From Albula goreensis (taxonomy: Eukaryota > Chordata > Actinopteri > Albuliformes > Albulidae), in NCBI GenBank assembly GCA_022829145.1, contig CM040764.1, positions 16,651,361 through 16,715,360 of the forward strand: DNA of 64,000 nucleotides, in the 5' to 3' direction. The notes beneath the pieces are model-generated. The model saw nothing but the letters and a program-made list of their open reading frames with translations. It had not been told where the DNA came from and did no database searches. Made by a program: the position numbers and the translations under genes. Below are positions 93 through 52,149 of the stretch, in pieces. Position 1 is the stretch's first letter. Each line of letters opens with the position of its first letter.

Positions 93-1641
93 CCCTCCAA
101 TCACCTTCCAGTTCTGGCCCGTTGGCTGCGCCCTCCTGTCGTGGCCCCTCTCCTCGACCTAACAGCTTCCTGTTTCGAATGGGTCAGAGGGAGGATGCCA
201 GGAGAGGTAGGTAGCAGGGAGGTTAAAACTATTGAGCAGCTCATAACTGCTGAATGGATGCCAAACATATGGTCAGTTACCACTTTGTTGTTAAAAGATA
301 AACTGTGTAAACCAAGCAGGCCTACATCCTCTTCAGCACGACCACAAGGTGCTTTGCAATGGAGTAAACTGTCTTCTGGAAAGAACAGAAAATCTGTTAA
401 TTATTAGCCTTTCTGATATGTGATAAAACATATTCCTTCTTTCCTCCCTCTCTCCTTACCACTCTTCCCTTTCTCCCGTTCTCTGTCAGCAGATGGAGGG
501 GTCACAAAGGCTGAGTGTGAAGAGGCGGCGTCTCCTCCTGCCCCAGGGCTGGAGGGAGAGGAGGCAGAGCTGGTGGAGCAGTTGCGTAAGGTGGGAGAAC
601 ACACAGACCACTGATCTCTCACATACCACAAACCCTCAGCACACCACACCAAGGCTGGGAAAGGAGGGCTGTGTCCATCTGCGGATGTCATGCCAACGTC
701 TGCTCCTGAATATTTAATTAGACCCCTCATTTATCTCATCTGACATCTTCATATCATGGGTGGCAATTGAAGACTGTTCCTTTGTCCTGGTTTGAGATGT
801 TTTAACTGTGGTCTGATCAACATGTGAATCAGTGCTGGCACATTAAGCTAATTACTTAAATCATGGGAACTAAAATCCAGAATACACACAGGCCCTCAAG
901 GACCGGAACTGTCCACCCCGGTTACAGCACAACACTGCACTGTACTAAGACAGCATTTTACAAACTGGCCATTCATTCTGCACAGAAAACTTCTTCCATT
1001 TTCCCACCATGAATCTTCCGTGCTACGATCTGAACATGTGTCCCTGTGTAATAAATTCTATTTAAGTGTGTGTGTGACCTGAGGTTGCCTGAGGGTGTTC
1101 TCCCTGTCAGGCTCCTGTTGTTAACACTACAGAGACAGGCAGTTATTTAGAGATTTCAATACACTCTCGGCATTCTGTCTGAGAATGACATTTATAGCAG
1201 GCAAGTGGCAGCTTCGGCACTGATCGGGATCTCAGAGGACAGTGTGTGGAAGTGTGATATATTTAATACACACCTCTTGTCTGTACAATTTTATGTTTGA
1301 ATCACAAGTATCATCTCAGCCTTGTTAACGCTGAGTTGATGTAATTGGTTAGAAAATACTTTCTTCTCACAAGGTCTTGCCAGGGTTATAGCAGAGAGGT
1401 AACAGCTGAGCATGCAAGGTTTCTGAAGTTATATGTCAATTCAGCATGATAGGACGGTGTAGGAATATGTCCTCAAAGTCCCATCTGTGCTTTGTCTTCA
1501 GAACATCGAGTCCCGGCTGAAGGTGTCATTGCCTAGCGACCTGGGAGCAGCTTTGACGGATGGGGTTGTGCTCTGCCACCTGGCCAATCACGTGCGGCCA
1601 AGATCCGTGCCCAGCATCCATGTGCCTTCACCTGCAGTGGT

Positions 1642-1675
<34 letters not shown>

Positions 1676-2785
1676 ATTATGCTGGCTCTGCCTTTGTCAC
1701 TGCTTCATGTGATACACCTTTTAAACATCATTCAGAGTCGTTCTGTTTGTGATGGATTTTGTCACTGTCTCTCCATCGGTCCAGCCCAAATTGACGATGG
1801 CCAAGTGTCGGCGGAATGTGGAGAACTTCCTGGAGGCATGTCGCAGGCTAGGAGTTCCACAGGTGAGGCCAAGTGACATTGCTGCAAAAGTGCATGTGTG
1901 CATGCATGCATGCATGCTGGTATGCTCACATCAGGTTAGGAGGGATTGATCAATCAGAGATCTATACTACAGTCATTGTGTTCATGTATAGATTGTCAAT
2001 GGTATTTTTATATTTGAAATGATTTTTTCTTTGACTACAGATGTTTCCAGACATAGCAATCTCAATAATCTATGTTTTAAGAAAGGCTTGGCTGTAGTGT
2101 GAAGTGCTGCTTTACTTTAAATGACATGCAGGTTACTGAGTAATCCTGGTGTGTGTGGGAATGAGTGAGCGAGCTGATGTGTGTGCTCACGCGTGTGTGT
2201 ATGGGTGTGTGCTGTGGAACCCTGTTCCCGCCACACTTTTACTCAAACACAATCTTGAACGAGTGCCTTGAACACACTATCCCCCTTTAGTGCCTATTTC
2301 CTGCTACTAACAATCTCTATATCTCTCCCTCCCCTCCCCCTCATTCCTCCCTCTCTCTTCCCCACTCTCTCTCTCTCTCTCTCTCTCTCCCTCCCTCTTG
2401 CTCCCTCCAGTCCTGTCAGCCATGATCATTGTCATCTTTATTAGTTCATTATTATCGTGCCATCTGTATATTTTTTGGGTTTTGCTTCTGAAAACTTATG
2501 TTGCACATTTGGTTCATCATTATTTGTATGATTACACATATTATTATTTCATATTTATTATTTTACTTATACCATTCATTGACCCATCCTTATTTTCCTG
2601 CACTGTTTTATCCCCTCACCCCCTGCCACTCAACCCAGGCCCAGCTGTGTCTTCCCCTACACATCCTAGAGGAAAAGGGGCTCCCTCTGGTGGCCGGGAC
2701 AGTAAGTGCACTGTTGGAGCTGGCCCCCCCGAAACACACCTCCACCTCCTCTTCTACCTACACCACCTCCTCCCTTGCCATTTAG
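93..2785 (+). CDS. lrch3: LRCH3-type leucine-rich repeat and calponin-homology protein, C-terminal part (5' end outside window)
   Basis: Five 3' coding exons are visible: 93-206, 493-590, 1502-1639, 1785-1862 and 2639-2785. All junction phases agree; for example the last G of exon 206 joins AT at 493 to give Asp. The first exon carries a Ser/Pro-rich stretch ending RPNSFLFRMGQR, a motif I associate with the LRCH linker. The next exons form the C-terminal calponin-homology domain (QLRK-NIESRLKVSLP, GVVLCHLANHVRP, then KCRRNVENFLEACRRLGVPQ and LPLHILEEKG). The stop is TAG at 2783. LRCH proteins are membrane/cytoskeleton-associated scaffolds that bind DOCK proteins (family knowledge). The leucine-rich repeats must lie upstream of the window. 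The family call is strong; LRCH3 rather than LRCH1, 2 or 4 rests mainly on the neighbouring rpl35a, as in human 3q29. Confidence 0.85.
1644..1674. repeat. (GT)n microsatellite directly after an lrch3 splice donor
   Basis: An uninterrupted GT run begins five bases inside the intron that follows exon 1502-1639 (donor GTCAGT). Confidence 0.95.
1896..1918. repeat. (GCAT)n short tandem repeat
   Basis: Repeated CATG/GCAT tetramers in the lrch3 intron, just after exon 1785-1862. Confidence 0.7.
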
Positions 2786-6092: not shown

Positions 6093-9000
6093 TCACAGGC
6101 TTTTATTCACATATCTCATTGCAGTCTGTCCATTCTTCAACTTTAAATGTATTTTTGCTCTCATCTTGGCAAGTTCTTCTTCATCTCTCTGGTCAGCGTT
6201 GAAGACGTTCTGTGGGAGTTTAAGGGGGAGCTTGGTTTAAGGTTTGCAGCCTCATTTGTACCCATGTCAAAAGTACTGAACCATTTCTTGCAAATGTAGC
6301 TGATTTTTATAAATTTTTATAAATAAAATCAGTAAGTTGATTTTGCCCAAAATAAGGCAGAATGATTGTCATTAAACAGATTATTTCTAATTTCAGACAT
6401 CAGTCCACATATCCTTGAAGTGAACATAAAAAGAAGTTTTTCTGTTCTGTGACACTTATTCTGTTTTTATTCTCCACAGAGGATTGGGGGAAGACGTACC
6501 CAGTGTGACGAAAGACTCTTCAGCAGTCTTAAATTAATCTTGTGTGCAGTCTCTTTGCATTCTGAAACATACCAAGAGGGGACACGACAGCCCCCCTCCT
6601 CGTCCATGAAGCAGGAGCCCAGAGCCCTCTCTGGTGTCTGATCTGAAAATAGAGGTAGTGAACTCTACACTTCAAAAATATGGTGAGGACTTTAGTGAGG
6701 AAATTAATTGCTAAATGCTGTGATGTACATAAGTCTTACAAACTGAGTCGTGTAATTTTAGTACCTGTTCGTTCCTGGATTGCTTCCAGGGATGGTGAGG
6801 CAGTAACCAGGCAGGGAGTGGGATGCTGTTCTGATGTGATGTGTGGAAGGACAGGTGTCCTCCTCTGGCCCTCCTCCACAAGCTCCCCTTCTTCTCTGAG
6901 CCACTTTGGCCCTGTAGTTTCACTGGCTTGTGTCTCACTTTCTGTCTCCATCGCTGCACAGTGGAATAGTGAAAGGCAGTTATGTGCGTGCCCAAGCAGG
7001 ATGTTTCCAGCAGTCCAGCAGTACCAGATGCACCCTTTGAGGCAGAAACTCAGCATTGGGCACAGCTGGCTCCACAACGGCCATTTTTCAGACATGGATT
7101 CAGCAGTGTTCAATTGTTTCCAATCATCTTTTGTTTCCTAGGAGTCACACAACAGTTATACAGCTCTATCCACAAGGAATGCTGTGGGTTTAGAACCATG
7201 GCCATAACTTCTCAATCCCTGCAACAAGAAATTTGATTAGCCTATTGGGCCTTGGACCGAGGTCTGTACTAGACTTCAGTTCCAGTTTTGCCTCACATCT
7301 GTTAACTCTGACAGAGTAAAAGTTGAGTAAATGGAAGCCCTGGAGATTTGCTCCACCTCATACCTTGGTTTTTCACAGACTCTGCTGTCGCTGCTCCCTC
7401 ACCGCAGAGATGAGAACTGCGGTACAGGGTCTCCTCTACAGACCCCCTCAGGGCCTGGAGTTCCCTGAGCTCCTCCAAACCACACTAATGAAGATTCAGA
7501 TTTATTCAGGTCAGACTGAGTGACATTGTCAGATTGGAAGAAAAATAACCAAAATTAGTATTTATAATTTCCAAAAATTAAAGCTTTTAGATTTATTTTA
7601 TTGGATTTATTTGGAGCAAAGGTTCAGGCTTCTGTCACACCTGTGCCACTGTTTCTTTTTCATGCGGAAAAGTGCAGAGCTGAGCTGCTTTGCCAGGTCC
7701 TGTCTCTGTAGCTTCAGAAACCTTCCTCTGTGTGTCCAGCTGCCTCTGCTGCCCTGATATGAGTTGCCTCATGTCTTGAAACCGCTGACTGGACTCCTTT
7801 GGGGGACAGAAAAAATTGTGTTATAAGACAGCTTTCAGTATTGATAGTCTGAATGGAAAACTAATGGAAAAATGCTTCTCTGCAAAAGTAATCTTAGTCT
7901 GGGTCTGTTAAGCATTTTGTAAGCTAATTGTTTATGTATATGTATATACATATATACATCATCTGCATTTCTTTCATTTGGTGAGGAGTGAAGAAATGTA
8001 AGATTTCCTTCACCTGGAGCTCTCGATCCTTGTCCTCCAAGGTTCTGGTGAGGTTTTGGATTTTGGCTTCCTGGTCCTGGAGTTTTACCTCACGTTCAGA
8101 GAGCACCAGCTCCAAAAAGGCCATCTCCTCTTTGGCTTCCACCAACAGTTTTTGTGCCTCCTTTTGACAAGGAACACCAGCATCATTACGAGCACAAAAA
8201 ACATGCTCAATTCCAGCCCATAACACTGTCCAGCCCACAGTGTGTCACATACCACCAAGTCCTCTGTCTTTTTGTCCAGAGCCCCATGAAGCTGTGAAAT
8301 GGCCTGGTTGTCCTCTTTGAGGACATGGGATGCATTGACCTCCAGGTCCTGTATGGCTTTTTCAAAATTGAGCCTGACAGTATGCAGCTCCTCATCTCGC
8401 CTTTTTTGCACGGCCTGCAGGTTCTACAAGAACAGGCATGACAGTGTGTCAGCCACAAGAAATACAGCAAAATACAATCCTTGCAGCTATATCAGAGGTG
8501 GGCAATGAATGCTGTATCTGGATTTTACGTCAGCTTCTGCTCTTCATTATGTGATTGTTCTATTAACTTGCATGACCCCAAATTTTACCTCAATTTTCTT
8601 CTTCCGCTTACACAGGAATTAAATCACCCACACCAGAGCCACAATGTCCTCATACTGATCCAGGACTAACTAACCAAAGCAGTGACCCAGAATCAGTTCA
8701 AACAGCTGGGACAGAAGCATTTAAAAACAGACAACAGCTGACTGTTTCTGTAAGCATCAGTTTTGCGACCATAGACCTGTGCTTAAGTGACTCCCAAGGC
8801 CTGTCATTCACCTGCAGCTCTCGATCCTTCTCCTCAAAGGTTCTGGTGAGGCTGTGGACCTTGGCCTCCTGGTCACCCAGTTTACCCACACACTCAGTGT
8901 TGAGCAATTCCTTACATGCTATTTCCTGTTTGGCCTCAAACAGGAGTCTTTCCACTTCCTTTCAATAGGAGTACCAACATCATCAAGAAGGGAAGACAAA

Positions 9001-10752
9001 ATAAACAATCAAAATTCTCTTTCCAGCTCACACTGATCTTCCCACAACAGTCCCATTACGCTTGTGGAAATGTATCACATAAAAACCTTGTTTGGATCAT
9101 GTACCTCCAAGTCCTCTGATTTCCTGTCTAGGGCCTCCTGAAGCTCAGATACGGACTGTTCTGTCCTTTTTAGGATAAGAGACGTGTTCACCTCCAGCTC
9201 CTGCATCTCTTTTTCAAACGTGGCCCTGACGTTGCATAGCTCAAGGTCTCTACTTTTCTGAAGGTCTTTTAAATTCTATTTCAACAGGAATTAAATTGAG
9301 TCAGCCACTGAAAATACCAGCAGACACATGTCTACTAGCTGCAAAGTGTCCTGAGCAACCACTGATCTAGGGCAACCTAATCCATAGACTGACCCCCATT
9401 TATTTAAATACTGTTCATGGCTATTTCAAGAAAACAACCAGACAACACCAGCCATATTAGATGTTTCGTCCCCAGTTCTGTTGAAAATCTCTGATTGTGC
9501 ATACATTGAACTCTTAACTGTTCTGGCCCAGGATATCTCAATCATATTGTTACTAGCACATCTCAGAGAAAGGAGATGGAGTTGTAACACATTGGAGTGA
9601 GAAGTCACTTCGACATGACCAATGAGTCTCGGAAGCGGTGCTCGTTCTTTAGCATTCCCCAAATGTCAATCACCTGGATCTCTTGATCCTGCTCTTCCAG
9701 GGTTCTCATGAGGTTCTGGACTTTGACCTCTTGGTCCTTCATTTTAGCCTCATAGTCAGTGAACAACATCTCCATAAGGCCCGTCTGTTCTTTTGCCTCC
9801 TTCAGACATTTCTGCAGCTCCTTTTAGCGAGGAGGACCCACATCATACATTGAAAAAACTCAACATCATTGAGTGTGTGGTAAAAGTGTCTCAAGAATAA
9901 TTTCCAGGCTAAATCAGTTTGGGAATATTTGGACATATGAATATCATGTACCTTTGACTCCTCTGTCTTCCTTTTTAGTACTTCCTGAAGTTGAGAAATA
10001 GCCTCGTTGTGCTCTTTGAGGACACATGATGTGTTTTCTGCCAACTCCTGAATTGCTTTTTCCAAGGCCACTCTGACATCGTGTAGTGCCAGTTCACGCC
10101 TTTTCTGTAGAGCTTGCAGCTTCTACATCAACAGGCATTTGTGTGAATTAGCCGAGATGCATCAAAACAGGTCCTACATTTCAAAGTCTGAAGGAACGTA
10201 CCTCCAAGTCCTCAAACCTCCTGTCAAGTGCTTCCTGCAGCCGAGATATGACAGTGTCCTTCTCGTGCAGGGAACCACACATCCCCATCTCCAGCTCCTG
10301 CTTTGACAGGTGCAGCTGTTCAAACACATGCTCCACATGACCAAGTTCAGGGCTGTCCTCACTTGACAGCTCATTCAATCCCTGTTATGACAACAAGAGT
10401 ATGTAAAAATGCAGAGAACCGCATCTGTGCCTAAGCAGCGGTGTGGCCAGCAGAGTTTGTGGCCAACAGATGTATTTGAGGACATTAAAATGTACATCTC
10501 ACTCCACAGATGACCCAGATGCTGAACTGGGTCATCCCATACTGCTCTTTGTGCCTCAAACATCCTGTAAAAAAATTGTGGAATGGGCCTTTTTCATTTT
10601 CATTTCAATTTTGAATTATCTATAAATGAAAGTAAATGGGAACATAATCATAAATAAATCATTCATCTCTAAACAGAGACAGTCACCTCCACTAAAAGGT
10701 GACTCCATACGTTGAAGGATTGTTTGACTTTCTCTGCTGTCATCATGTCCAT
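6093..10752 (-). CDS. Coiled-coil protein with three tandem 106-residue repeats; resembles CDK5RAP2/myomegalin coils only weakly
   Basis: Thirteen exons, read on the minus strand: 10752-10687, 10381-10202, 10122-9952, 9820-9674, 9275-9105, 8958-8812, 8423-8253, 8160-8014, 7796-7641, 7484-7403, 6953-6765, 6642-6500 and 6209-6093. All phases fit and give about 628 residues. Exons 3-8 are three copies of a 57-codon exon (core KRRxxxLHxVRxxFEKAIQ, then ISQLQEALxxKxEDL) followed by a 49-codon exon (core EAKxQNLTRTLEDKDRELQ). Exon 2 (60 codons, ending RLQEALDRRFEDLE) is a diverged copy of the first type. Exon 10 (EELRELQALRGSVEETLY) recalls the short helical motif of CDK5RAP2 and myomegalin. The start chosen is MDMMTAEKVK (G at -3, G at +4), because joining the upstream exon creates TGA. 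No transmembrane segment or enzymatic motif is seen. A centrosomal or microtubule role is only inference. Confidence 0.6.
7403..7484 (-). CDS. Exon of the coiled-coil gene with a CDK5RAP2-like helical motif
   Basis: Acceptor CATTAG and donor GTGAGG flank 82 nt encoding EELRELQALRGSVEETLYRS and a few more residues. The pattern L-x-x-L-R-x-x-(L/V)-E-(E/D)-(S/T) is like the repeated helices I remember in CDK5RAP2 and myomegalin. Phase 0 in and phase 1 out match the neighbouring exons 7796-7641 and 6953-6765. Confidence 0.5.
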
Positions 10753-11197: not shown

Positions 11198-11347
11198 CAA
11201 CGCATCAGGTTGTCAGTGTCTGCTTCTCTGCACTTGTAAATCAATTCTAAATAGTAAGAGTCAGTTTTATGACAAAATAGTCTCAGAATTCATATCATAA
11301 CCAAAATAGAATACTCCGTAAACAATCGTACCCTGAACGTCACAGTC
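11198..11347 (-). other. Possible 5' exons of the coiled-coil gene (11347-11332 and 11246-11198)
   Basis: Two segments have good minus-strand splice sites: TTGTTGCAG/GTACGA around 16 nt and TATTTAG/GTAAGT around 49 nt. Together they keep an open frame (DCDVQELIYKCREADTDNLM), but splicing to the 10762 acceptor makes TG+A, a stop. They may be 5' UTR, an alternative first part, or coincidence. Confidence 0.35.
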
Positions 11348-13005: not shown

Positions 13006-15318
13006 ATGCCAGGAAGGTGAGTACAGCGCACGGAGCAATTAATGATATTTGCAGTTAACTTGTTTTGGGGTTGGCCCTGTGGCTGACATACTGAATTAAT
13101 ACCACCTGTTTTTACATTTACATTTGGTTGCTAATACTCAACTGTTTTTGGACCTCGTACGAGGTTGTGGTTTTAGCATTTAGTGCTCAGCTTTAGGGGT
13201 TAGTTATCTACCTGGACATGACTGTGTGAAGTGTGAACAACTTTAAAACATGCTTCCATTTTGCCAGTTAAGATGTATTGATGCACCATATAGGTTGGAT
13301 GGACTAAAGATTGTACATTATGCAGTATCCATGTAATGCTGTGGGGTGATGTAGTTCTGGGGGCTGACTGTACTCTCTGCTCAGACTGTGGAGCAAGGCC
13401 ATCTTCACTGGGTACAAGCGCGGGCTGAGGAACCAGCGTGAGCAAACAGCCCTGCTGAAGGTGGAGGGGTTGTACACGCGTGAAGAGACAGACTTCTACC
13501 TGGGCAAGCGCTGCGCCTTCGTCTACAAAGCCAAAAGGTGAGCCTCCTTTGGGGTTGCTACACTGTGAAAACCCCCCTGCCGCAGTCTCTGTGGTGGTAG
13601 TGGGAAGTGTGGTTCCTGAGAGCTTTATCATTTACTCAGACTTGGCTCTCTCATATATTAGACTCCAGTGAGGTATTTCATACAGGGACACAAGCAGGCA
13701 TTAGTTGTCATTCATGAACCGGAAGAATGTAACTAAGATGTCTAATCACATGATTGGGTTGATGAAGTGATCATAAGTAGGTATTGGAATTAAAATGAGG
13801 TAGATATGGCCCTTTAGGGACACAGCTCCTTACATGTGTGAAGTTGGGGCTTAAATAGCATGGGTCCTGCTTGGTGCTTTTTGAACTTACTGTTGTAAGG
13901 TTAATTTCATATTGTGCTTTGCCTTTATGTGTTGCCTGTTCATTCCATGTGTAATGAATATGGTGTCAACTAAGGCATACATTAAATCTTGTGGTGGTCT
14001 TTTAGAGGTGTTCACCATGGCATCTCATTCTAGGCTACAGCAAGCACATGTAATAAGTATGAACAGATTTTAAGGTAGAGTAAAGCGTTCTGGACTAGGG
14101 CAGCTCTGCAGAGGTATTTGGCACTTGTTACTGGTCCCTTTTGAGTGGGGTGGTTCCACATACTATCCTCCAAGTATAAGCACTTGCCACTTCAGAGTAC
14201 TGTCAAACTTCCAATATAAGAATGCGTTATGAACTGACAAGTCCAGCTATTGTATGAGCCTGGCTGTAGCATTAGTAAGTATGCCTATTCAATGTACTGG
14301 GCATTTTTTACTGATGGATAGGTGTGAATGTGGAAAAACCAAAGCAAATCACTCTTGCATGCAGAAAAACTCAATATAAGCTAGACAAGCGGGCATGTCC
14401 TAGTAATTTGTGTGGAAATGCTGTTTGTGGATGGGTGCAGGTTAAGATTGCAGTCTCATTTCCTCTCCAGGAACACAGTAACCCCTGGCGGCAAGCCGAA
14501 CAAGACGAGGGTGATCTGGGGGAAAGTCACACGCGCCCATGGCAGCAGCGGGATGCTGCGTGCGAAGTTCAGCAGCAACCTGCCCTCCAAGGCCATTGGA
14601 CACAGAGTACGAGTGGTGAGCCTCACCCCATTCCGCCACACCCCCTCATTCAGCCCTCCCCAGGGCAGGCAATACCTAATAGAGCTTCTGGAGATGTTCA
14701 TTAACAGCTTTGGTCTGAGCTTCCCAAAATCTGATTGGCACCAGGTGATTTGATGGTGGATTCGGTCAGTTCAGGTAATTTAGGGAACTTGCTCATCAGT
14801 TTCAGGTCCTGTCTAGCTTTGCCTTTATGTGTTGCCTGTTCATTTCACTTGTGATGAATGTGGTGTCAGCAAAGGCATACAGCAAGTCTTGTGGTGGTCT
14901 CACGGAGGCAGTTTGAGTGGCCTTTGTTTAAGGCCACGACAAGAACAGAAAGCCAGCATAATGAAAAGACCTAACTCAAGACGTGTCTCAGTATGATGCT
15001 CAGTATACACCGAACCCTTGAGAGTAATCAAATCAATATGGAATATGGTGAATAGCCTGTGTCCTGCTATTTTTAAGGCCTGAATCTACATTGGTCTTCT
15101 CCACCTCCTGGTTTTACAAGCTAAACATAACTAATACTTGATTGAGGAAAAATGTCATTTTTCCCACAAACCTACTGTGAAAATTATTTAAATTTTCCTG
15201 TTTTTCCCAGCTTAACTTTCCAAAGTTGTAATCCCCTCACTTAGACATATACTGAAAGGTTAACCTACATATTATGTTTTGGCTTCTCTTTCAGATGCTG
15301 TACCCTTCACGAGTCTGA
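13006..15318 (+). CDS. rpl35a: 60S ribosomal protein L35a (eL33)
   Basis: Coding exons are 13006-13016, 13385-13537, 14471-14615 and 15295-15318. They total 333 nt, giving 110 residues, the same length as human RPL35A. The protein starts [20 protein letters not shown], continues through [20 protein letters not shown] and [19 protein letters not shown], and ends RVRVMLYPSRV. It is a structural protein of the large ribosomal subunit, acting in the cytoplasm after nucleolar assembly. The ATG lies four residues before an intron, a common layout in ribosomal protein genes. Introns 2 and 3 each contain an H/ACA snoRNA candidate. Overlapping AATAAA signals occur at about 15340-15349, soon after the TGA at 15316. 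Identification is near certain. Confidence 0.97.
13918..14051 (+). ncRNA. H/ACA snoRNA candidate in rpl35a intron 2
   Basis: The 5' hairpin is closed by TGCCTT (13920-13925) pairing with AAGGCA, with an inner TTCATT/AATGAA stem. A hinge ACATTA fits the H box ANANNA. The second domain begins CTTG and pairs with CAAG just before an ACA trinucleotide at 14046-14048, three bases from the proposed 3' end. It is about 134 nt and strongly similar to the element in intron 3. The 3' hairpin is less clean than in that copy. The target pseudouridine is not determined. Confidence 0.6.
14818..14950 (+). ncRNA. H/ACA snoRNA in rpl35a intron 3
   Basis: A two-hairpin H/ACA fold can be drawn. The 5' hairpin is closed by TGCCTTT/AAAGGCA with an inner TTCAT/ATGAA stem. 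The hinge ACAGCA fits ANANNA. The 3' hairpin is closed by CTTGT/ACAAG with an inner GGCC/GGCC helix. The ACA box is at 14945-14947, three bases from the 3' end. Length is about 133 nt. Intronic location in a ribosomal protein gene is typical of vertebrate snoRNA hosts, with release by splicing and trimming. I do not recognise the SNORA family. Confidence 0.75.
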
Positions 15319-30282: not shown

Positions 30283-33200
30283 ATGGATGTGTGCTGTTGT
30301 GAGCCACTGCATTCTGTAAATTCCAATCCACAGTTAAATTAAACAATTTTTAGATTTGGATTAGCATGGAGAACAAGCCCCCACTGTAATGACTTCCAGT
30401 CTGGGATCAGGCGCAGTGTGATAGAGGAACCTCATATGCCAGGCTTTTATCAATTTTTTCTGCTCTCCCAGTTCAGCGTGATAAACTTTTTAGACTGTTA
30501 CAAATAAATAACAATTCTAACCAATAACATTTCAGTGGAGGTAGGCCCAACCCAGAAAGCTGTACTTAATGGAGACGTGTGCCAAATATAACTTCCTTTA
30601 ACCTCCCTCTGACCGATGACACTGCTTGTACTAGACAGTGTGCGAGAGAGTGTTTGACATTTAACTGAATGTTTTCCCTTATCTGGAAACAGTGCAGAGG
30701 TTAAGTCAAATTTTTACCTTCTAAATGTTTTACCACATATTTTAATCTGCCATGAAATCTTCTAAATGATTTCTCTGCTCCTCTCCTTATTCCTTCTTTG
30801 CTTGACTCCTTTCCTCTCACTGTGCCTCTCTCTCTCTTTCTCAGTGCGAATGCTGTGGGCAGTCAGGATAATCTGGACACGGAGACTGAGACTGAATCGG
30901 TGGTTTCGCTGCGGAGAGACAGGGACAGGGACAGGGAGAGGGAGAGAGAGAGGCCGCACAGGAGAGATACGCACGACCATGGTGAGATTCTTCTCAGCCG
31001 GCCTGACTGTGGCCAACCATAAATGCTTGGAATATTAAAAATGCATCCCTCCATTTTGTGGTTGGGCCCCATGATGGAGTATTAAATCCCGTTAGTGCCA
31101 GCTCTGGCTGCAGCTAGCAGCCCTGCAGGGCCAAGCACAGTAAGCTGTAGCGATGTTCAGGGTGCCATTACTCACAAGCAACCACAGCTGGTCAGCCAGG
31201 CTCCCGCAGTCTGTCTGCACTAAGCTACACAAAAAGAAGCGTCTGCCTCTGATTCATGTATGTGCAAGCACAGCCGGGTGACAGCAGTTAGAAAAGAAAC
31301 AGCGGCACGGCCCTCTAGGTGGAGCAAAGAGTGAAGGCACATGTTTGTGACACAACTGTGTAAGCAGCTGTGACGAGTCCAGTGAGAGGTCTGCATTAGT
31401 GGGCAGAGAACTGAGGAAAATGTGCATAATCCAATTAAACTTATTAGTGTCATTGCTCTCTAGTGAAGCCTGTTTTTGTGAACTGAACATATGTTGACTC
31501 CAGTAGCATAGTCAATATGTAACTGCTGTCACATCTGCCATGTGAATTTGGAGTCATGTTTGGTCACATCCTCCTTAGTCTGTTGGGCAGGTTTGTGTCT
31601 CAGCCTCATCTCATATCTTCATCAGTCTTGTTTTCATCCCTTACTCCATGTCTCTGTGGCCCCCTGCAGGGGGAAGGATGAATGGGCATCCCCGGCCTGA
31701 GCGGAGGGCGGAGCTGGGCGGGTACGAAAGCTCCTCTACAGTGATGAGCAGTGAGCTGGAGACCACCAGCTTCTTTGACTCCGAGGATGACGACTCAACC
31801 AGCCGGTGAGGCCTCTGGGTCTGTGCTGACCTAATCTCAATGCTGATGAGTCGGCATCATGGGATTTTGTTGCATGTGTCTCTCATTTGGAGTGATGTCA
31901 CAGAAGGAGTGATGTCACATCTCTCCCTCAGGTTCAGCAGCTCCACCGAGCAGAGCACCTCCTCCCGTCTGATGAGACGACATCGACGTCGCCGTAGGAA
32001 ACCAAAATCATCACGCATGGAGAGGGTGAGAAAAATGGGCACACAGACATACAACACTGCTGTCAGTTGTTGCTGTTATATAAGTGTGTGTTACCTCACC
32101 CGTCTCTCCCTCTTTATCTCTCACACTCTTTTTTACCTCTTCCCTCTCTCCCCCTTTCTTCCGTGCCTCTTTCTCCTTGTCTCTCCAGTCGTCCTCGTTC
32201 AGCAGTATCACAGACTCCACCATGTCTTTGAACATCATCACTGTCACTTTAAACATGGGTGAGTACATCTGTCTGTCTGCCTCCCGGCTGTGTCAGTGTT
32301 CACACACTCCCTGAAAGCCCTCACATTTAGAGAAATAACATCAAGGACTTGAAAGTAATTGGAAATATAAATATTTACACAAGTACTGTGAATTGCTTGA
32401 ATTGTTTGTGGACGATGATCTGGTAAAACTTAAGTCCATGTTCTAAGTAAACTATGTCTGGGGAAACTGATTCTTGATCTGAATACACACAATTCTCCAA
32501 ATATTTGCGGTTTGGAAGGATATTGACAGAACTGATCCTGGGACAGTGTTCATTTTCCGGAATATTTGGGCCATTATTCTGCTTCTTTATTATTGCTCAA
32601 TTTCATGATATCTCATGATCGTTTACTATTTATGGGTCCTTGAATTTCGGGTGGGGGGGGGGGGTGAAAGGACCGGAAAAGTCCTTGAACCTGTGAACAG
32701 GTAAGTGTGTGTTTCAGAAGTCTTATGGTCTTACTGCTTGTTTATTATAACAATATATAGAAGTCATTAATGTACAGGATGCAGGTGGTTGCACACTCTT
32801 GTGTTATGGCAGACTTAGATACATAATGCACCAGTTAGGGCTGTTGATCATTATCCTCATTAAATTACAAGTTTTTCATTCCTTGTGTGACAGATTAAGT
32901 TCTTTATAGTCAGGGAAACATAGATGTCTAGTTTTTGAATATTTCATATAACACAAGCAGTTCAAAGTGCACCTCAGCCTCCCCAGTCTTTCATTGGCTA
33001 CATATTCATGCTCCTTTTGGTAACCTTGACACGCTGTCCCTCTCTCTCTGCAGAGAAGTATAACTTCCTGGGCATCAGCATAGTGGGCCAGAGCAATGAG
33101 AGAGGGGATGGGGGGATCTACATCGGCTCCATCATGAAGGGCGGGGCCGTGGCAGCTGACGGACGCATCGAGCCCGGAGACATGCTGCTGCAGGTGAGCG

Positions 33201-36200: not shown

Positions 36201-37131
36201 CTGCATGACCATGATGGCTCCAGTGGGGCCTCTGATCAGGACACCCTGGCCCCACTGCCCCACCCTGGCGTGGCCCCCTGGCCCCTGGCTTTCCCCTACC
36301 AGTACCCCATCCCCCACCCCTACAACCCAACCCCCCCACCCCTGCACGAGCCGCCTCACAGCTACTCCACTGCAGGGGGAGGTAGTGCTGGCAGTCAACA
36401 CAGCGAAGGTGAGCCTCTAGGAACTGCGCAAACACACACACACACACACACACCTATTTGCGCATGCACAATCACTCACATACATAAATGCATACGGAAA
36501 CTCTCACATGGCAACATGTGTGAGAAGTACTTCAACAAACACATATACACACATGTAGACAGGTACTGCCACACACACTCAAATACACAAGTACACACAC
36601 ACACAAAAATACACACGTGGACACCAAGTCTCCTTGCGAACTGGCATGAGTATGTGTTTTTGAGTTTGTTTCTTTATCCATTTTTTTATACAATATGTTT
36701 ATATTGATAGAAAAATGAGAGCGAATGAACTGATTGGATGAATGTCTCTCACAGGGAGTCGCAGCAGTGGTTCGAACCGCAGTGCAGGGGGTAAGAAGGA
36801 GGCAAAGGGGGCGGAGTCCAAGTCAGGAGGCAGTGGCAGTGAGTCGGAGCAGAGACGAGAGAAAGCTCCAAGTGAACGCTCTTTGGCGCCCCCTAGTGAG
36901 CGGAGCATCCACAGCACCCACAGCCTGCGCAGCACCCACTCCCACAGCCTGATGTATGGCCCCCCAGGCCTGCCGCCACAGCCCCAGCCACAGCTTCCCC
37001 TCGCCCAGGCCCCACCCGGGTCCCCCCCTGGCCGTGACCTGGGCTCTGTGCCCCCTGAGCTCACAGCCTCCCGTCAGTCCTTCCGCATGGCCATGGGAAA
37101 CCCCAGTGAGTTTTTTGTGGATGTCATGTGA
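17932..37131 (+). CDS. dvl3: Dishevelled 3, Wnt signalling scaffold
   Basis: Fifteen coding exons: 17932-18092, 27516-27585, 29769-29890, 30845-30981, 31670-31805, 31932-32025, 32189-32258, 33054-33193, 33553-33629, 34110-34177, 35022-35171, 35504-35635, 35862-36029, 36184-36408 and 36755-37131. They sum to 2127 nt, giving 708 residues (human DVL3 is about 716). Domains in order: DIX (residues 1-82, start [11 protein letters not shown]); an acidic Ser-rich segment; a polybasic [11 protein letters not shown] run (about 225); PDZ (about 245-335, carboxylate loop [10 protein letters not shown]); DEP (about 418-495, [14 protein letters not shown]); a Pro/Ser/His-rich tail ending EFFVDVM. Dvl polymerises through DIX and relays Frizzled signals to Axin (canonical) and Rac/Rho (planar polarity) at the membrane. 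The [12 protein letters not shown]-terminus fits DVL3 better than DVL1 or DVL2. The a/b copy of the fish duplication is not decided. Confidence 0.95.
20492..20572. repeat. (GT)n microsatellite, about 80 bp
   Basis: Uninterrupted GT dinucleotides end in GCGCGC. This is in dvl3 intron 1. Confidence 0.97.
21794..22003 (+). repeat. Interspersed repeat copy A in dvl3 intron 1
   Basis: The segment beginning GTCTGACTTGATCCAGGAGAG and ending CTCTGAAGTAGAA is highly similar to the reverse complement of 23405-23551. A (GA)n(GT)n compound microsatellite (21881-21952) has expanded in its middle. Confidence 0.7.
21881..21952. repeat. Compound (GA)n(GT)n microsatellite
   Basis: GA repeats with a few interruptions run directly into about 17 GT repeats. 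Confidence 0.95.
22282..22351. repeat. (CA)n microsatellite, about 70 bp
   Basis: Uninterrupted CA dinucleotides in dvl3 intron 1. Confidence 0.97.
23405..23551 (-). repeat. Interspersed repeat copy B, inverted relative to copy A
   Basis: Its reverse complement aligns with 21794-22003: GTCTGACTTGATCCAGGAGAG, CCAGAAGGGTGTTTG, CTGGCCTTCCCATCAGAG, then a short GT run and CTGGGGA...TCTCTGAAG. It lacks the GA expansion. Confidence 0.7.
23641..23702. repeat. (GA)n-rich tract
   Basis: GA/GGGA-rich purine run on the plus strand in dvl3 intron 1. Confidence 0.85.
25806..26117. repeat. Probable dispersed repeat (AATTCAAATT ... AATTTGAATT)
   Basis: It begins AATTCAAATTCAGAAAGCTTTATTGG, close to the dispersed fish repeat end ATTCAAAT...GCTTTATTGG, and the far end carries the inverted AATTTGAATT. 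The interior has no coding frame I recognise. Family and exact ends are uncertain. Confidence 0.4.
27714..27900. repeat. Fragment of a dispersed MITE-like repeat
   Basis: It starts AGAAGTGCTGATCTGGGGCC followed by AGTTTTGCC, an end sequence I associate with a common teleost non-autonomous repeat. An inverted matching end (CAGATCAGCACTCCTA) occurs separately near 48288 in ap2m1. Low certainty. Confidence 0.35.
30047..30079. repeat. (GT)n microsatellite
   Basis: GT run in the dvl3 intron after exon 29769-29890. Confidence 0.95.
30231..30280. repeat. (GT)n microsatellite
   Basis: Second GT run in the same dvl3 intron. Confidence 0.95.
34377..34412 (+). CDS. dvl3: Candidate 36-nt cassette exon of dvl3 (12 residues)
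   Basis: A strong pyrimidine tract and TCCATAG acceptor precede 36 nt, followed by an AG/GTACCT donor. The length is a multiple of three. It enters with the phase left by exon 34110-34177 and leaves with the phase needed by 35022-35171, so it can be included or skipped. Inclusion inserts [11 protein letters not shown] plus a replaced flanking residue between the PDZ and DEP domains (LPR-K...G-EPIRP instead of LPR-S-EPIRP). I do not recall this insert in human DVL3. Expression is not shown by sequence alone. Confidence 0.5.
36435..36452. repeat. Short (CA)n tract
   Basis: CA repeats just after the donor of dvl3 exon 36184-36408. Confidence 0.85.

Positions 37132-42623: not shown

Positions 42624-52149
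<9,526 letters not shown>

Follow-up and report, generated by a model that had tools for sequence, protein, structure and literature searches.

The CM1 domain (Cnn_1N) of the CDK5RAP2 (CEP215) and PDE4DIP (myomegalin) family binds gamma-tubulin ring complexes, and an EB1-binding motif of the SxIP type is a feature of CDK5RAP2. A piece of this family has been re-used before. According to two reports, a single, likely ancestral copy of the DUF1220 (Olduvai) domain resides in PDE4DIP (PMC5773923), and the domain copy of that gene was duplicated, placed in new genomic surroundings and strongly amplified in primates (PMC4067907). Here we analyse a window of 64,000 nucleotides from the fish Albula goreensis (contig CM040764.1, positions 16,651,361 to 16,715,360 of the forward strand), which holds on its minus strand a set of exons with a coiled-coil exon pair (A and B) present three times in tandem. 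We put at about 0.78 the probability that these exons make up a protein-coding gene, functional and so far without a name, which elopomorph fishes carry and which descended from part of a CDK5RAP2/myomegalin-family gene.

By these accounts of NBPF and its Olduvai/DUF1220 repeats, the two cases would be alike in that a PDE4DIP-family piece moved elsewhere and a unit of it was then multiplied (PMC4067907, PMC5773923). They differ in that the NBPF piece is the Olduvai domain, with a primate expansion and a copy number that differs strongly from species to species, whereas three units are found here in each sampled species. Since no Olduvai/DUF1220 domain was found in a Pfam scan at E ≤1, the piece re-used here would be a different one.

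Repeated exons and gene model

The gene model has 13 exons and about 641 codons (Table 1). Seven exons of the repeat region, named A0, A1, B1, A2, B2, A3 and B3, measure 180/171/147/171/147/171/147 nt in this order; all of them are open, in phase 0 and on the minus strand, flanked by AG upstream and GT downstream, in agreement with the sequence-only reading of this DNA that had first pointed them out. The 628-residue protein of that reading was corrected to 641 residues, with the end of exon 1 at 10687 and the start of exon 11 at 6953; the former was set there because the relatives described below carry WSHLLVE/WSNLLIE at this position. The Pfam scan used a first model of 660 residues and the alignment of relatives a 668-residue model predating the correction of exon 11.

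The A units are 47-58% identical to each other at the amino acid level and the B units 45-59%. Every pair lies above its shuffled controls: in 10000 shuffles per pair, with residues kept within their heptad classes, the maxima were 18-20 identities for the A pairs, against 27-33 of 57 observed, and 19-22 for the B pairs, against 22-29 of 49. Even the weakest pair, B1-B2, has 22 of 49 identities against a shuffle maximum of 19. With three residues gapped, A0 shares 18, 24 and 20 identities with A1, A2 and A3 (shuffle maxima of 17, 21 and 16), and not one of the 10000 shuffles reached the observed value in any of the three comparisons. Judged by this likeness, the 60-codon A0 is a fourth, more diverged copy of the A type, as had been suspected.

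The ratio of non-synonymous to synonymous substitution rates (dN/dS) between units, a check proposed with the first reading, is 0.16-0.44 (NG86 method), and conservation is lowest at third codon positions in five of the six unit comparisons, all but B1-B3. Seven introns were compared, and they can be aligned only at the 3′ ends of two B-to-A introns (77.5% over 40 nt). This fits an old duplication of genomic segments. The proposal of an old tandem duplication of the exon pair with the frame kept is borne out.

Descent of the A exons

Cnn_1N (CM1) matches were found at three places of the Albula goreensis genome, all outside the window (17 candidates scored), and 50 kb were taken around each (150 kb in total). 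They lie on contigs C1 (near 40.63 Mb), C24 (near 11.79 Mb) and C13 (near 11.83 Mb); C11, C14 and C20 below are likewise contigs of this genome. Human protein pieces mark the C1 locus as cdk5rap2-like (66% over 50 residues) and the C24 and C13 loci as pde4dip-like (up to 77% and 56%, respectively); contrary to a clean split, the PDE4DIP piece has its lowest E-value (1.4e-23, 29%) on C1, in the A/B exon region.

Within the 150 kb, all 60 codons of A0 aligned with one exon of C1 (39% over a 64-residue match, E 6e-8). A genome-wide search, which covered exon A0 and the Albula goreensis genome (5 candidates scored), gave C1:40632720-40632896 as the sole significant non-self match (41%, E 2.1e-6); next came the C24 pde4dip-like exon (E 0.42) and then A2 of the gene itself (E 0.48), and the C13 exon was not among the matches listed. 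The A exon is 180 nt long and in phase 0 in all three family genes, as is A0, and is followed there by a 195-nt B exon and a 192-nt C exon. A0 and the family A exons share the same boundaries, and A0 matches the cdk5rap2-like one without gaps.

Fifteen A units were combined into a profile (Aldrovandia A1, at 25 residues below the length limits, was left out here and in the trees), which was run on the 3867 open reading frames (ORFs) of the three CM1-gene regions. The profile placed the three A exons at ranks 1-3, with E-values of 1.2e-13, 4.4e-11 and 5.1e-5, and the next ORF at 0.24 for the whole sequence (0.027 for the single domain). The best of forty column-shuffled profiles that preserved the heptads scored 13.0 bits, while the real profile gave 48.3, 40.1 and 20.7 bits. 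In an unrooted tree of 14 A exons (60 columns), which omits four full or near-full A units (three of Anguilla and A3 of Aldrovandia), the gene's units stand apart from the three parents with a support of 92, and the A0 units (98) and the A1-A3 units (98) form separate groups.

On this evidence, the A exon is the same coil exon that the CDK5RAP2/myomegalin (PDE4DIP) family carries at 180 nt. The sequence-only reading had called the likeness to CDK5RAP2 and myomegalin weak, a judgement overturned by the genome-wide match of A0 and by the ranking of the parental exons. It had also allowed that these might be exons of a known gene in which they are single copy; the parents indeed carry A once, but this gene does not. 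Homology of the coil exons with matching boundaries and phase was found for A, and is weaker or ambiguous for B and C. With CDK5RAP2 the gene shares the phase-0 180-nt A exon, 39-41% identical to A0 without gaps, and neighbouring coil exons in phase 0; it differs in that the parent has CM1 and a single A, whereas this gene lacks CM1, carries three A-B pairs and differs from the parent at both ends. The PDE4DIP genes have the same 180-nt A exon followed by B (195 nt) and C (192 nt), but their A-B-C series is single copy, CM1 is present and the identity to A0 is lower (33% and 27%).

Relatives in other fishes

Five database proteins match the gene (E 4.2e-68 to 2.5e-107), from Synaphobranchus kaupii, Aldrovandia affinis and Anguilla anguilla (three models). 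The database labels them hypothetical, myosin heavy chain-like or AglZ-like. The myosin name, carried by an Anguilla model, was rejected: no myosin family appeared in the Pfam scan and no myosin chain among the four PDB matches at E ≤1, for which the first 485 of 660 residues were searched. Both searches of the first model gave weak matches only, and the three Pfam families obtained (E ≤1) were all under their cut-offs. No published description of the gene was found among the titles and abstract openings listed.

The window model was aligned with P0001, P0002 and P0003 (Synaphobranchus, Aldrovandia and Anguilla, respectively), leaving out the further Anguilla models P0004 and P0005. The exon order A0-(AB)x3 is common to all four. 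In the Aldrovandia model A1 has 25 residues only and A3 54, either by loss or by gene prediction. The same layout in Anguilla, Synaphobranchus and, less completely, Aldrovandia indicates that the gene is real and old. Between Synaphobranchus and Anguilla the unit at the same position is the most alike in seven of seven units, and the duplications would therefore predate the split of these two eels. Between the window and Synaphobranchus the rule does not hold for A2, B1 and B3, and B2 gives a tie.

The database searches covered candidates preselected by their length and by words in common with the query. In a profile search for wider relatives, in which 7996 candidates of 0.55-1.75 times the query length were scored, only P0001-P0004 of the five known proteins were returned at E ≤10. 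A search with the N-terminal region (37 candidates) returned Aldrovandia only and missed Synaphobranchus and Anguilla, so its positive control failed. So far the gene has been seen, among the five matching proteins, only in elopomorphs, to which it may be restricted.

Origin and possible role of the rod

It is possible, albeit doubtful, that the gene is what is left of a complete additional member of the family, which arose from cdk5rap2/pde4dip in an ancient whole-genome duplication and later lost its ends, and not a partial duplicate that moved. The long branches which part its A units from those of the three parents would allow an old split, and one pde4dip-like gene lies on the same contig, 4.8 Mb away; against this, the tree is unrooted and built on 60 columns, and the locus showed neither CM1 nor another recognisable flanking exon of the family.

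We favour a moved partial duplicate, which would have kept coil exons from the middle of its parent, without the N-terminal CM1, and has ends of its own. The 180-nt A exon, retained as A0, may have given rise to a copy shorter by three codons that became paired with a B coil exon. Tandem duplication of this A-B pair would then have produced three units before Anguilla and Synaphobranchus separated, perhaps earlier. By their sequences the B units are not assignable to one parental exon.

The 378-residue stretch from A0 to B3 would form a long rod, probably two-stranded, that spaces or scaffolds its partners, with each 106-residue unit, which fits 12 heptads and 2 hendecads, adding about 16 nm. 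The coiled-coil rod proposed earlier is upheld, and the repeats of the Synaphobranchus protein are predicted to be helical. The Pfam scan, run on the first model of 660 residues, showed no Cnn_1N/CM1, and the predicted 641-residue protein contains no S-x-I-P motif of the EB1-binding type. A spacer or scaffold role is therefore likely, possibly at the centrosome or Golgi by descent, where the rod might sit like its relatives; gamma-tubulin ring complexes would not be activated via CM1.

Whether selection on rod length or register explains the exact lengths of the exons, as the sequence-only reading suggested, is a separate matter. The constancy itself is real: 57 and 49 codons are kept in all six units here and in five of six each in Synaphobranchus and Anguilla, and in a simple register scan the hydrophobic register seems to shift forward by one with each unit of 106 residues. 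The constancy nevertheless indicates selection only weakly. B3 is four codons shorter in both eels, the Aldrovandia A1 and A3 are short in the available model, and the parental exons are equally constant, at 180/195/192 in all three family genes; A1-A3 (171) and B1-B3 (147) moreover differ from the family lengths of 180 and 195. Selection on length can be held only tentatively.

The gene suggests a second case, besides NBPF, of a CDK5RAP2/myomegalin piece re-used as a separate repeat-bearing gene. It also supplies an origin for a gene that eel annotation calls 'myosin heavy chain-like' or 'AglZ-like', and with single-copy A counterparts in the same genome the growth of a coiled-coil rod by exon-pair duplication can be followed. 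A bolder version, which we hold to be rather unlikely, would make it the equivalent of NBPF in fishes. A piece shed independently by the same family of centrosomal genes would have reached another place, where its exon pair was multiplied and fixed, and the resulting elopomorph-only rod would have taken on a novel role at the centrosome, Golgi or cilium.

Several observations weigh against the proposed descent and the picture drawn from it. The human pieces resemble the gene poorly (best BLASTP E 2e-4, most above 0.01; best phmmer E 1.1e-5 in a six-protein set). The B profile is best on the cdk5rap2 exon upstream of A (E 9.1e-5) and reaches the exon after A with E 0.034 (C24) and 0.43 (C1), two other ORFs ranking between; of the 12 B units, seven were tested singly, and the top z-score fell on the exon after A in three (one tied) and on the upstream exon in four. 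Exon 9 gave a global z-score of 5.0 with the cdk5rap2-like C exon, but its profile, built from two sequences, is not unique to that exon (E 0.019, against 0.016 for another ORF), and exons 1 and 10-13 have no match under E 0.9 in the three CM1-gene regions. The three B units of Aldrovandia cluster in the B tree (0.87), a pattern that gene conversion or a duplication of their own would leave, and a single ancient triplication can thus not be taken as established. The AlphaFold2 model of the Synaphobranchus protein, with helices at residues 41-242 and 247-367, has a mean pLDDT of 61, and the hendecads rest on a crude register scan.

The poor similarity to the human pieces and the weak specificity of the B units and exon 9 could point to mere convergence of generic coiled coils in a gene unrelated to CDK5RAP2/PDE4DIP. 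This is improbable: A0 singles out the cdk5rap2-like exon genome-wide, without gaps and with equal exon ends and length, and heptad-preserving shuffles fail to reproduce the likeness of A, so that generic convergence is rejected for the A exons. More improbable still is a pseudogene: all 13 exons are open and those tested have AG/GT borders, the dN/dS values of the units are as low as 0.16-0.44, and relatives exist in three other genera.

Features of the window and neighbouring genes

Table 1. Exons of the gene and other features of the window (positions counted from its first nucleotide)
Feature	Position	Strand	Remarks
exon 1	10687-10752	-	ATG at 10752, N-terminus MDMMTAEKVKQSFNVWSHLLVE; aligned with Anguilla and Aldrovandia models
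exon A0	10202-10381	-	60 codons, phase 0; counterpart of 180-nt A exon of cdk5rap2/pde4dip
exon A1	9952-10122	-	57 codons
exon B1	9674-9820	-	49 codons
exon A2	9105-9275	-	57 codons
exon B2	8812-8958	-	49 codons
exon A3	8253-8423	-	57 codons
exon B3	8014-8160	-	49 codons; 45 in Anguilla and Synaphobranchus
exon 9	7641-7796	-	52 codons; possibly the parental C exon
exon 10	7364-7484	-	121 nt
exon 11	6765-6953	-	189 nt; start picked by eye from the relatives' alignment
exon 12	6500-6642	-	143 nt; 3′ end least certain
exon 13	6093-6209	-	holds the stop codon; C-terminus RAKIHLKLKNG common to relatives
possible upstream exon	~11198-11260	-	non-coding
segment of B2-A3 intron	~8493-8550		58 bases
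calponin-homology exon	1463-1873	+	read as lrch3
rpl35a	13.4-14.7 kb
SNORA13-family match	13920-14051	+	75.2 bits
SNORA13-family match	14820-14950	+	73.6 bits
dishevelled-family exon	31810-32259	+	a dvl gene
dishevelled-family exon	36742-37128	+	a dvl gene
ORF	46521-46955		presumably ap2m1
mir-737 precursor match	47290-47352	+	65.7 bits

The possible upstream exon reads ADTDN, which resembles the 5′ extension TDTDN of the Anguilla model P0003; when it is joined to exon 1 a stop codon is met here, and the candidate was judged by eye only. The segment of the B2-A3 intron has an 84% match on C20 and is perhaps a dispersed repeat.

The gene lies between lrch3 and rpl35a. The calponin-homology exon, which we read as lrch3, was matched with E 3.5e-4 and 21.2 bits, under the cut-off of 26, and rpl35a by Ribosomal_L35Ae with E 2e-18 and 6e-17. 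Human IQCG sits in the same slot, between LRCH3 and RPL35A and on the opposite strand. That the gene is a diverged IQCG (DRC9, of the dynein regulatory complex) is hardly credible in spite of this agreement in slot and orientation with the human gene order, for nothing in the window matches it in sequence or IQ motif (best E 2.9 with the human sequence) and IQCG-like exons lie elsewhere in the genome, on C11 (E 2e-10) and C14 (E 2e-18). These two places perhaps hold two paralogues.

The two matches to the H/ACA small nucleolar RNA family SNORA13 (gathering threshold 53) are about 900 bases apart, in or beside rpl35a. Beyond rpl35a lie the dishevelled-family exons (PF02377, PF12316). The ORF that we take to be ap2m1 had no Pfam family at E ≤0.01, and near it lies the mir-737 precursor match, above its gathering threshold of 60.

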